From the NCBI GenBank assembly GCA_945833775.1, contig CAMAGI010000002.1:1-64000 (forward strand): DNA of 64,000 nucleotides, in the 5' to 3' direction. Shown here piece by piece: positions 56,043 to 64,000 of this stretch; the first letter of the stretch is position 1, and the number at the start of each line of letters is the position of its first letter. A program made the position numbers and the translations under genes. Under the pieces are notes generated by a model. It made no database searches. It was not told the origin of the DNA and saw nothing but the letters and a program-made list of their open reading frames with translations. This stretch comes from an uncultured Lachnospiraceae bacterium (GTDB lineage: Bacteria > Bacillota > Clostridia > Lachnospirales > Lachnospiraceae).

Positions 56043-56106
56043 GCCAATTGAGGACTGCGTGTGTGGCATCCGGCAGATGCGATGCTTTACACACGGTTTG
56101 TTTGTG

Positions 56107-56132
56107 GCATCTGCGGAATGGAAACGACTATG
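56107..56132 (+). repeat. Shared translation-start cassette, copy 4 (hydrogenase)
   Basis: GCATC TGCGGAATG GAAACGACT and the start codon, the same 26-base layout as at fhs and nth. Upstream, GCATC (56066), GATGC (56076), GATGC (56081) and CAGATGC can pair in mutually exclusive ways with one another or with the cassette's GCATCTG. Confidence 0.6.
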
Positions 56133-57631
56133 AGTATGAGAGGAATCGATACCCCTGTGCGGCAAAGAAGACGCCGCGTATTTAAAGAGGTTGCGAATTT
56201 AGCTTATGAATCCAGGAATTTGAAAGATGATTGTGAAGCACTTCCCTACAAGATTGTGGATTATGAAGAGTCCCAGTATTGGGAGAGCGTTTACCGTGAT
56301 CGGGCGATTATCCGTGAGCGTATCCGACTGGCGATGGGGATGAGTCTGCGCCCGGAGAATCGTGACAGGCCGGGGCACCTCACGGAGGGGATCGAAGAGA
56401 GCAATATTGATGAAAAGTATTATGAACCCCCGCTTATGCAGGTCATTCCATCTGCCTGCAATGCCTGCCCTGAGAATCGCTACGAAGTGACGAATTCCTG
56501 CATGGGATGTCTGGCACATCCCTGTCAGGAGGTTTGTCCCAGGGACGCGATCCGTTTTGTCAATGGAAAATCCGTGATCGATCAGGAAAAATGCATCCGA
56601 TGCGGAAAATGCAAAACAGTGTGCCCCTATGACGCAATTTGCCATAAGGAGCGGCCGTGTAAGTCCGCTTGCGGAATCGGTGCGATAAAGTCCGACAAAT
56701 TCGGGCGTGCCTGTATCGATAATGAACTGTGTGTATCCTGCGGTATGTGTATGGTAAGCTGTCCCTTCGGAGCCATTGCGGATAAATCTCAGATTTTCCA
56801 ATTGATCCGGGCTATGCAGTCAGGAAGAAAAATCATTGCGCAGGTGGCGCCCGCTTTCGTGGGGCAATTCGGACCGCTTGTGACACCTGAGAAATTTAAG
56901 ACAGCCCTGAAACAGCTTGGCTTTGCGGATGTCTATGAAACGGCGATCGGTGCAGATATGGGCTGTATGGCGGAAGCGGAGCATTACGTAAAAGAGGTTG
57001 CCGGCGGAAAACAGGCATTTGCACTTACCAGCTGTTGTCCGTCCTGGTCTGTGATGGCAAAACATTTCTTTCCGGAAACCATTGATAAGATCAGCAATGA
57101 GCTGACGCCCATGGTTGCAACGGCACGGTTGATCAAAAAGGAACACCCGGAAGCATCCGTGGTGTTTATCGGACCCTGTGCCTCCAAAAGCTGGAGGCAA
57201 GTCGCAAAAGCGTCAGGTCGGACGTCGATTTTGTCATCACCTTCGAGGAATTAACCGGCATGTTTGAGGCAAAGGGGATTCTGTTAGAGGAAATTGAGGC
57301 GATGGATACCATGCAGGATGCAACGGGTGCGGGTCGAGGATACGGTGTTGCGGGAGGAGTTGCGAGTGCAATCGCAAGCTGCATTAAAACCTATTATCCC
57401 GGAACCGAAGTGCGTATTGAGCATGCGGAGGGCTTGGCTGACTGCAGGAAAGTACTTACCCTTGCAAAGGCAGGGCGCATGAACGGCTGTCTGATTGAGG
57501 GAATGGCTTGCCCGGGCGGGTGTATCGCGGGTGCCGGGACCAATATTGCAATCAAGCAGGCAGCGAAGGAGGTTGCCCGGTTTCAGGAATCTGCCGAGAA
57601 GAAAGTACCGGATGAAATGGAAACATTATAG
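56130..57631 (+). pseudogene. [FeFe] hydrogenase with a single-base frameshift
   Basis: One gene read in two frames: 56130-57254 and, from about 57189, the frame ending at 57631. The N-terminus has a Cys-rich cluster (CNACPENRYEVTNSCMGCLAHPCQEVCP) and two further ferredoxin-type motifs (CIRCGKCKTVCP, CVSCGMCMVSCP). H-cluster motifs follow: L1 TSCCPSW, L2 FIGPCASK(K)LEA and L3 GMACPGGCIAGAGT. L2 is broken: the run of four A at 57186-57189 should be five to read CASKKLEASRKSVRSDVDF. Without correction translation stops at 57252-57254 and loses L3, hence the H-cluster. The motifs point to a monomeric group B-like enzyme. A sequencing error, a real mutation or rare -1 slippage are all possible. 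Confidence 0.85.
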
Positions 57632-61181: not shown

Positions 61182-61499
61182 TCATTCATCCAGAAGTTCA
61201 TCAAACTCACAGTTGTCCAGATACTCATCGAAAGCATCTGCCACCTTTTCGTATTCCTCATCATCCTCGATGAAGTCAAGCTCCGGTTCCTCGTTGGGAT
61301 CGTCGGGATTTTCGCGATAGCCGTAGAACCAAACCTCTCCGTCGGAATTCTCCCCGTTTTCATCAATGGGAAGAAGGGCAATATAGTCCTTTTTGTCCAC
61401 TTCCAAAATTGTGATAACAGCACAGTTTACGAGAGTGCCGTCTTCCAATTCCAGTTCAACCGTCATTTCTTCATCCGCGTAATTTTCGTTATTCGACAT
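61182..61499 (-). CDS. DUF1292 family protein (YrzB type)
   Basis: 105 residues, strongly acidic, with the DUF1292 core MTVELELEDGTLVNCAVITILEVDKKDYIALLPID...VWFYGYRE. In bacilli and clostridia this family is found near yrrK/yrzL; its role is unknown. The start is the ATG at 61499 with TGAGGA upstream. It faces the helicase gene (16 bases between stop codons, no terminator seen) and is divergent from the GH13-like gene. Confidence 0.88.
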   Translation of the reverse strand: MSNNENYADEEMTVELELEDGTLVNCAVITILEVDKKDYIALLPIDENGENSDGEVWFYGYRENPDDPNEEPELDFIEDDEEYEKVADAFDEYLDNCEFDELLDE

Positions 61500-61547
61500 A
61501 GGTTTCCTCATTTCTGCGCTGTTGCTGCGCGTATAAGCTTTTGTCTC

Positions 61548-61576
61548 ATTATAATCTATTGCAAGGTAAATCACAA
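61548..61576 (-). promoter_or_regulatory. Promoter of the DUF1292 gene
   Basis: On the - strand TTGTGA (61576-61571), 17 bases, TATAAT (61553-61548). It interleaves with the divergent promoter at 61559-61587. Confidence 0.55.
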
Positions 61577-61587: not shown

Positions 61588-61635
61588 AATTGTGATAATT
61601 GTTTGATAGAAATTCTGAAAAACGGAGGGAATACG

Positions 61636-63516
61636 ATGAATTCAACAGATAGTCAGACACCATATCCCCTGGGCGTTACCACAACCGATTCCGGAATCCG
61701 TTTTTCCTTTGTATCCGAATCCCCGGATTGCGGGATTTTACTGTATGAACGAGCGAGCGGAAGATGTCTTGAAAAGATACCTTTTCAGCCCGGGGAGCGC
61801 ATGGGAAAAGTCTATACAAAGCTCTTGAGTGCAAAACAGCTGCATGGATTGAAGAATACGGAGATTGCATGGCAGTTTTACAGGGAAGAGAAAATTGTAT
61901 GTGATGAGCGGGCGGGTGCATACATCGGCACACTTCCGTACGGAAAACCTCGTTGCAAGGAAAAGGTGCTTGCAGCGTTTCCGCTGACGGAGGATTTTAC
62001 CTGGGAATCGGATAAAAGACCGGGGCTTTCCTATGAAGACTGCATCGTGTACTGCATGCATGTGCGGGGATTTACCAGACACAGTTCCTCCAAGGTCGGA
62101 AAGAAAGGTACCTTTTCGGGAATCATTGAAAAGATTGATTATTTGAAACAAAGCGGTTTTACGACACTGGAACTCCAGCCTGCTTATGAATTCGATGAGT
62201 TGCCGGATGATGGAAGTTGTGCTCCTTCCCGCTTAAACTACTGGGGGTATTGTAAGGGCTTCTATTATGCCCCCAAGGCGGCATATGCGTCAGCGAATGC
62301 GGCAAAGGAAATGAAAGAACTGGTGAAGGCTCTGCATCAAAAAGGAATGGAGTTGATTTTGCAGATGTACTTTCCGGAGGATGTCAATGTGCTTGAGATA
62401 CCCGTGATCCTGCGTTTCTGGGTTTCGGAATATCATGTGGACGGATTTCACTTACTGGGCGCGACACTTCCGGCTGATCTGATCGCCTCGGATCCGGCCC
62501 TCAGCGATACGAAGCTCTGGTATTACCATTTTGACACAACTCATATTTATGGGAAGGGAACAGAGGTAACGGAACGAAATCTTGCCGAATGCAAGGATGA
62601 TTTTCTCTATGCAGCACGGAAATTTCTAAAAGGAGATGAGGGCATACTATCGGATATGCTTTCGCAGATGCGCTTTCAGCCGGATTGCATGGGTCGAATT
62701 CATTATATGACCAATTATAATGGTTTTACACTCTATGATCTGGTATCCTATGACCGCAAACATAATGAAGATAACGGTGAGGAGAATCGGGACGGAAGCG
62801 ACTATAATTTCAGCTGGAACTGTGGAGAAGAGGGAGAGACGAGAAAGAAGAACATTCGGAAGCTGCGTATTCGACAGATCAAGAATGCAATGTGTCTTTT
62901 ATTGCTTTCCCAATCCACTCCGATGGTATTTATGGGAGATGAGTTCGGCAATTCCCAGAAGGGAAACAATAATCCGTACTGTCAGGACAATGGGATTGCA
63001 TGGCTGGACTGGCGCTGCCTGGAGAAGAACAGGGAACTGTATGATTTCTGGTGCGGGTTGACACAATTCCGCAGAGAGCATCCCATTCTACACGGTGCGA
63101 AACAGTTGCGACTGATGGATTATGCGGCATGCGGATATCCGGACCTGTCCTATCATGGTGAGAATGCCTGGCAGCCGGCGCTTGCAGGCTTCGATCGGCA
63201 GATCGGCATTATGTATTGCGGAAAGTACGCCCATATCGATCGCGTGACGGAGGATGATTTCCTCTATATCGCCATCAATATGCATTGGGAGCCCCATGAA
63301 TTGGGGTTGCCCAAACTTCCGAAGGGAATGTGTTGGGAGATAGTCCTGGATACCCTGGAGGATAGGGGAACTTCGGAGTCAAATTTATCCGCCGGCCTGC
63401 ATTTTGAATCATCGACCAGCTCTACCATTGTTGCCGCTCGAAGTATAAAGGTATTAAAGAGTGTTCCCTGCAAGGTCGAAAAAGAAAAAGAGAAAAAGCT
63501 CAGAAAGAAGAGTTGA
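61636..63516 (+). CDS. GlgX-like GH13 protein lacking the catalytic residues
   Basis: 626 residues, homologous along its length to glycogen debranching enzyme/isoamylase-type GH13 proteins; the match is strongest around NGFTLYDLVSYDRKHNEDNGEENRDG and LLLSQSTPMVFMGDEFGNSQKGNNNPYCQDN. The catalytic triad is gone: region II VDGFRFD reads VDGFHLL (Leu274 for the nucleophile Asp), region III KLIAEPWD reads KLWYYHFD (Tyr297 for Glu) and region IV HDG reads YNG (Asn362 for Asp). Region I DVVYNH is also lost. It probably binds glucan without cleaving it. A Lys/Glu-rich tail ends the protein. GGAGGG at 61624-61629 sets the start. Confidence 0.85.
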   Translation: MNSTDSQTPYPLGVTTTDSGIRFSFVSESPDCGILLYERASGRCLEKIPFQPGERMGKVYTKLLSAKQLHGLKNTEIAWQFYREEKIVCDERAGAYIGTLPYGKPRCKEKVLAAFPLTEDFTWESDKRPGLSYEDCIVYCMHVRGFTRHSSSKVGKKGTFSGIIEKIDYLKQSGFTTLELQPAYEFDELPDDGSCAPSRLNYWGYCKGFYYAPKAAYASANAAKEMKELVKALHQKGMELILQMYFPEDVNVLEIPVILRFWVSEYHVDGFHLLGATLPADLIASDPALSDTKLWYYHFDTTHIYGKGTEVTERNLAECKDDFLYAARKFLKGDEGILSDMLSQMRFQPDCMGRIHYMTNYNGFTLYDLVSYDRKHNEDNGEENRDGSDYNFSWNCGEEGETRKKNIRKLRIRQIKNAMCLLLLSQSTPMVFMGDEFGNSQKGNNNPYCQDNGIAWLDWRCLEKNRELYDFWCGLTQFRREHPILHGAKQLRLMDYAACGYPDLSYHGENAWQPALAGFDRQIGIMYCGKYAHIDRVTEDDFLYIAINMHWEPHELGLPKLPKGMCWEIVLDTLEDRGTSESNLSAGLHFESSTSSTIVAARSIKVLKSVPCKVEKEKEKKLRKKS

Positions 63517-63517
63517 A

Positions 63518-64000
63518 ATGCTGGCAAGGCACTTAAAAACAATCTGTTATCACAAATATCTGGTGGCAAAGGGATGCTTTCGGGTCGGACTTTATAGACA
63601 GGGATTGCTTCATGACCTGTCGAAGTTTAGCCCAACGGAGTTCCTGGTGGGTGTTCGCTACTATCAGGGAAATCGAAGCCCGAACAATGCGGAACGGGAG
63701 GAAAAGGGATATTCCGAGTCCTGGCTGCACCACAAAGGACGCAATAAGCATCATTATGAGTATTGGATTGATTATTCCCTGAAAGATGGTCAAGGCGGAT
63801 GCATGGTTCCGGTTCCCATGCCGGACAAATACATTGCGGAAATGATTATGGATCGCATTGCAGCCAGCAAAGTGTATGAAGGCAGCGCCTATACCGATCG
63901 TTCTCCACTCAATTATTACTACAGAGGAACGGACAGGGCACCGATTCATGAAAAGACCAGAGCAAAATTACTGCATTATCTGAGCCTTCTTGCAAATGAG
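63518..64000 (+). CDS. DUF5662 family protein, cut by window end
   Basis: The first 161 residues of a protein that runs past the window; no stop is met. LLHDLSKFSPTEF and SWLHHKGRNKHHYEYWIDY are typical of DUF5662 proteins, with several conserved His and Asp that could bind a metal. Role unknown. Its ATG comes one base after the stop of the GH13-like gene, so the two are translationally linked. Confidence 0.8.
   Translation, partial: MLARHLKTICYHKYLVAKGCFRVGLYRQGLLHDLSKFSPTEFLVGVRYYQGNRSPNNAEREEKGYSESWLHHKGRNKHHYEYWIDYSLKDGQGGCMVPVPMPDKYIAEMIMDRIAASKVYEGSAYTDRSPLNYYYRGTDRAPIHEKTRAKLLHYLSLLANE

Follow-up and report, generated by a model that had tools for sequence, protein, structure and literature searches.

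Why does a Lachnospiraceae bacterium keep a GlgX-like protein that lacks the residues needed to cut glycogen? The gene lies in the window, i.e., the whole stretch of 64,000 nucleotides analysed here, as an open reading frame at 61636-63516 (forward strand, as are all features below unless indicated otherwise). It encodes 626 aa, starts with the ATG at 61636 and is preceded by a ribosome-binding site (GGAGGG, 61624-61629) six nucleotides 5' of the start codon. Its product, termed pseudo-GlgX in the following, is a GH13_11-like paralogue with an isoamylase/GlgX fold, and its assignment as a non-catalytic paralogue is based on the open frame with its ribosome-binding site, the match to TIGR02100, an AlphaFold2 model and a Foldseek comparison. 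TIGR02100 (GlgX) is the top NCBIfam model (E = 4.6e-87), but the score of 293 bits does not reach the curated cut-off of 640.9 bits. In the genome searches, the family scored at most 267 bits against this model, compared with 610-687 bits for active full-length GlgX. On the sequence level, the likeness to GlgX is nevertheless far above chance. The top sequence matches in the PDB are isoamylase 1 of rice and Arabidopsis and GlgX of Streptomyces venezuelae, and Pfam recognizes a partial alpha-amylase domain. A CBM48 domain was detected in six of 25 family members and is absent among the matches of the window protein.

An earlier note on this DNA had placed Leu274, Tyr297 and Asn362 at the positions of the catalytic Asp, Glu and Asp, and both the motif register and the residue numbers agree with this. 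In region II, GFRFD of GlgX is changed to GFHLL, with Leu274 (62455-62457) at the position of the nucleophile (Asp342 of S. venezuelae GlgX). In region III, KLIAEPWD reads KLWYYHFD, with Tyr297 (62524-62526) in place of the general acid/base (Glu378), and in region IV, HDGFTL reads YNGFTL, with Asn362 (62719-62721) in place of the third Asp (Asp450) and Tyr361 replacing His449. For the window protein, the loss of the triad was even understated in that note, as region I is also gone (DVVxNH to QMYFPE), and Arg of region II and His of region IV are replaced by His and Tyr, respectively. Furthermore, compared with GlgX, the stretch from region I to region II is shorter by approximately 44 residues and that from region II to region III by 14, and the shortened region I-II segment (62359-62433) comprises 25 residues.

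A joint alignment of 135 distinct homologues revealed a working triad in none of them. The nucleophile column is empty in all 135 members, which carry a GFHLxG-type motif there; in one member (L142), an Asp does take the matching place of the region II motif, yet its region III is deleted. Glu occupies the acid/base column in 12 members and the third Asp is kept in 15 (~11%), both residues occurring together only in L139, which has no nucleophile. The proposed loss of all three residues therefore does not extend to the whole family, in which it is the nucleophile and the complete triad that are generally lost. In the active comparators, Asp, Asn and His of region I, Arg and the nucleophile of region II, Glu of region III and His and Asp of region IV are kept in 31 of 31 sequences, a count with one fragment left out. 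The region I-II segment measures 24-25 residues in all 135 members versus 68-71 in active enzymes, and the spacing between regions II and III is 26-27 versus 39-41 residues. This constancy of segment lengths across the family points to one ancestral remodelling rather than to ongoing erosion, and according to the alignment most of the domain-B-type loop is lost. A shorter subclade of approximately 560-590 aa (L140-L144, L163 and L164) has lost more residues around region III. At two loci the homologue is in pieces (L110 and L117), and L110, with many short frames throughout, looks like a poor assembly.

The family is widespread in Lachnospiraceae. Among 200 genomes sampled from nearly as many genera, a profile search matched pseudo-GlgX in 160, three of which (G074, G147 and G189) score weakly and may hold partial genes; restricted to high-quality genomes, the count is 134 of 164. 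Outside the family Lachnospiraceae, pseudo-GlgX was found in none of the samples drawn from the order, class and phylum, where only GlgX of the active type occurred. These outside matches are broken in two at the segment that pseudo-GlgX lacks, belong mostly to open reading frames of 620-790 aa and have intact catalytic residues in every aligned case; the two strongest matches of the class and phylum samples carry DVVFNH, GFRFDLA, AEAWD and HDGFTL. About 85,000 species genomes were also scanned, non-exhaustively, with short peptide patterns, which gave loci of the Lachnospiraceae type and active Acidovorax GlgX. One member (L093, 7962-10031) comes from a record labelled Fusobacterium naviforme ATCC 25832 and is nested inside the otherwise Lachnospiraceae-only clade; the strain name of this record is probably wrong.

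In a tree of 105 rows, obtained by a quick search and midpoint-rooted for drawing only, pseudo-GlgX forms one side of a branch with an SH-aLRT of 100, with the active enzymes on the other side. With GlgX of E. coli and Acidovorax as the root, the clade attaches beside the Lachnospiraceae GlgX, and an origin by duplication of a resident GlgX gene is plausible. The end branches of pseudo-GlgX are longer than those of active GlgX, suggesting that constraint is somewhat relaxed. This faster evolution is what would speak for gene decay or for an artefact of the assembly, a reading whose probability we consider negligible in view of long open frames in about 160 genera, dN/dS values of 0.04-0.15 in 18 independent pairs and 26 invariant columns in 105 sequences; decay was rejected on the basis of dN/dS and distribution. 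Pseudo-GlgX is under strong purifying selection across Lachnospiraceae. The random decay beside orthologues with an intact triad that would have contradicted the earlier note was not seen; instead, the replacements are fixed across the clade, and its proposal of a conserved GlgX-type pseudoenzyme under selection holds clade-wide. We regard it as well supported, with very little residual doubt, that the protein is non-catalytic and selectively maintained.

What has been retained can be judged from the predicted structure. The AlphaFold2 model of the window protein, built on 105 homologues, reached a mean pLDDT of 94.7 and a pTM of 0.94. A Foldseek search against the PDB placed rice ISA1 first (E = 1.4e-55, TMq 0.83), followed by Chlamydomonas ISA1, S. 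venezuelae GlgX, TreX, E. coli GlgX and plant ISA2 (TMq 0.75). The three-domain isoamylase-type fold, together with the sequence homology, assigns pseudo-GlgX to the GlgX/isoamylase (GH13_11) fold family. The isoamylase fold is thus predicted to be intact, and an open cleft is suggested, from the missing segments only.

The structure of S. venezuelae GlgX with acarbose names the sugar contacts, including W222 and Y224 as contacts of the -1 subsite (PMC9530166). No member of pseudo-GlgX retains H271 or D342, and most have lost E378, H449 and D450; the W380 position is Trp in 78 of 135. In contrast, with Arg212 set aside for want of a reliable counterpart in the alignment, conservation across the family reaches 87-100% at W222, Y224, E470, N534 and Y536: W222 and N534 in all 135 members, Tyr or Phe at the Y224 position likewise in all, E470 in 133 and Y536 in 131. 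In the window protein, these contacts correspond to Trp203 and Tyr205 (WGY, 62242-62250), to Glu382 of the NGE motif (62779-62781) and to Asn446 and Tyr448 of GNNNxYCQDN (62971-62979). Since W222 and Y224 are contacts of the -1 subsite, this site keeps its aromatic floor and not its polar groups. The outer-subsite residues are conserved as much as in active enzymes, or more. Glucan binding, which we consider likely, is suggested above all by this combination of erased cleavage chemistry and a cleft that is kept. The binding role proposed in the earlier note thereby gains indirect support, although the outer-subsite residues may be conserved for folding instead. Control by c-di-GMP, known from S. 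venezuelae GlgX, was considered as well; the residues that bind it are reported to be shared within Streptomyces and to be missing from TreX and from GlgX of E. coli (PMC9530166). The conserved acidic residues Glu239, Glu382, Asp386, Asp435 and Glu436 would speak for an enzyme whose active site has moved or changed. However, these are common to active GlgX, where they have other roles, and a comparison of the two groups yielded no newly fixed acidic pair and no fixed differences at the threshold used, so that a new activity appears very improbable.

The genomic neighbourhood was compared at 75 loci. Pseudo-GlgX most often adjoins genes for an ABC-F protein and ExoIII or lies between a GalU-like gene and a HU/YabPQ/DivIC/SpoIIE/TilS cluster; in the relatives of the window, it is flanked by a divergent DUF1292 gene on one side and a DUF5662 gene on the other. 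Some of these names, DUF1292 and DUF5662 among them, come from domain scans, and the other neighbours were named by reading their sequences by eye. In the window, the DUF1292 gene (61182-61574, reverse strand; PF06949, E = 3.6e-19) is divergent, upstream of pseudo-GlgX and conserved in close relatives. The DUF5662 gene (63519-64000), identified by synteny and by PF18907 in the L050 orthologue, begins two nucleotides after the pseudo-GlgX stop codon, runs off the window and is probably co-transcribed with pseudo-GlgX. This gene, with His/Asp-rich motifs noticed by eye, directly follows pseudo-GlgX both in close relatives and in G133, a genome further removed (L213, 7030-7599). Elsewhere in the window, an iron-only hydrogenase-like gene (56061-57631), with ferredoxin-type cysteines followed by GPCASK, is interrupted near 57187 by a frameshift, beyond which the protein continues in another frame (KLEASRKSVRSDVDFVITFEELTGMFEAKG); the lesion may be real or stem from the assembly.

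Glycogen genes were looked for beside pseudo-GlgX across the 75 loci and none were found. This absence, the variation of the neighbours between lineages and the loss of most -1 contacts would fit a protein that works elsewhere, as a sensor, assembly factor or signalling partner, with the glucan cleft as a structural leftover. We consider such a function possible and rather unlikely, as the outer-subsite residues are conserved at least as well as in active enzymes.

Another explanation is that, like ISA2 for ISA1, pseudo-GlgX serves an active GlgX of its own cell as an obligate non-catalytic partner. Active GlgX was detected in 57 of the 200 genomes and is more common in carriers of pseudo-GlgX (54/160) than in non-carriers (3/40; Fisher p = 7e-4, ignoring phylogeny). 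In one genome (G126; L212, 2647-9738), genes for an active GlgX, an ABC-F ATPase and pseudo-GlgX form one operon-like run on the same strand, followed by TraX and LuxS, and in G133 the two paralogues are 2 kb apart. By coordinates, however, they lie close together in only these two of the genomes carrying both, and GlgX was not detected in 106 of the 160 carriers. The earlier note had suggested a genome search for an active GlgX or pullulanase; in the window's genome (83% complete) none was found, and all three types of debranching enzyme, i.e., GlgX, type I pullulanase and GDE_C, were searched without a match both there and in a 100%-complete genome of the same genus. The co-occurrence counts led us to reject an obligate partnership for the most part, and we regard it as improbable. 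Across Lachnospiraceae genomes, no association with pseudo-GlgX was found for type I pullulanase (p = 0.84) or GDE_C (p = 0.24; search in 190 of the 200 genomes). At the thresholds used, 63 of 134 high-quality carriers are without all three types. The glycogen genes glgA (194/200) and glgD (192/200) are near-universal in Lachnospiraceae and are carried by nearly all of the 40 genomes without pseudo-GlgX, and their co-occurrence with it therefore says little.

Our best guess, to which we assign about an even chance, is that pseudo-GlgX, an isoamylase paralogue of ancient origin and without catalysis, binds branched alpha-glucan and takes part in glycogen metabolism as a scaffold or regulator. 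The catalytic centre itself is dismantled: the nucleophile, the acid/base and the histidines of the -1 subsite have disappeared, and two segments of the active site have been cut out. In this reading, a GlgX-type paralogue would have lost its activity a single time, no later than in the ancestor of Lachnospiraceae, and would then have been kept as a cytoplasmic alpha-glucan-binding protein. Judging from the retained residues, the outer subsites may still hold a maltodextrin or branched-glucan chain. The analogy with plant ISA2 suggests a protein that would bind glycogen branches or chains and act by scaffolding, by masking branch points or by regulating other glycogen enzymes, and not by cutting. 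Several observations speak against this reading: the neighbours of pseudo-GlgX are not glycogen genes, 40 of the 200 genomes do without it although nearly all of them have glgA and glgD, and CBM48 is detected in few members. More speculatively, and with a probability we put clearly lower, Lachnospiraceae could organise their intracellular glycogen with an ancient, dedicated non-cutting isoamylase, an independent counterpart of ISA2 that acts without an active isoamylase and shapes or regulates glycogen by binding branches, given that in roughly half of the high-quality carriers GlgX, type I pullulanase and debranching enzymes of the GH133 type were all undetected.

No description of the pseudo-GlgX family was found in the literature searched. 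About four fifths of the sampled Lachnospiraceae genera carry this enzyme-shaped protein, with the machinery for cutting glycogen branches lost and the residues holding sugar chains kept. Databases and genome papers list such proteins as debranching enzymes, and GlgX is the name given by general annotation models and at least one genome table. The numbers of "GlgX" in gut Lachnospiraceae may be inflated. The 648-aa glgX2 listed for Butyrivibrio hungatei (PMC5716241) and the second glgX listed for Blautia obeum (PMC10395257) may belong to this family. The carriers are organisms in which a knockout combined with glycogen analysis may be feasible.

Among known systems, plant ISA2 is the closest analogue, as it combines an isoamylase fold with a lineage-wide loss of catalytic residues and maintenance under selection. 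ISA2 is a non-catalytic isoamylase whose catalytic residues were lost in the ancestor of the whole lineage and which is kept by selection for reasons not understood, an open question to which pseudo-GlgX adds a bacterial case (PMC12510319). In pseudo-GlgX, too, the nucleophile and most of the conserved catalytic residues are replaced lineage-wide. Unlike ISA2, it is bacterial, and the co-occurring active isoamylase partner that characterizes the ISA2 type is usually absent from the genome; given the 106 of 160 carriers without GlgX, it cannot depend on such a partner. The region I-II segment is excised in pseudo-GlgX. The pseudo-GlgX profile scored 424 bits with active ISA1, 393 bits with GlgX and 228 bits with ISA2. 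This makes an independent loss likelier than common descent and suggests that catalysis was lost independently of ISA2.

With GlgX/isoamylase (TIGR02100, GH13_11), pseudo-GlgX shares the fold, nearly the full length, the outer-subsite contacts and the motifs WGY, NGExxxDG, SWNCGxEG and GDExG..GNNNxYCQDN; in contrast to GlgX, it is without the triad, the chemistry of regions I, II and III and the two active-site segments, and it scores far below the TIGR02100 cut-off. GlgD, the non-catalytic subunit of ADP-glucose pyrophosphorylase in Firmicutes, is likewise a paralogue without catalysis that the same bacteria retain in glycogen metabolism (PMC10395257). GlgD differs in its fold and in the step concerned, and it works with its catalytic paralogue GlgC. 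In animals, SLC3A2 (4F2hc) is a non-catalytic GH13-like protein that serves as a membrane-anchored transporter subunit; it shares with pseudo-GlgX a GH13 fold without catalytic residues and belongs to a different subfamily.
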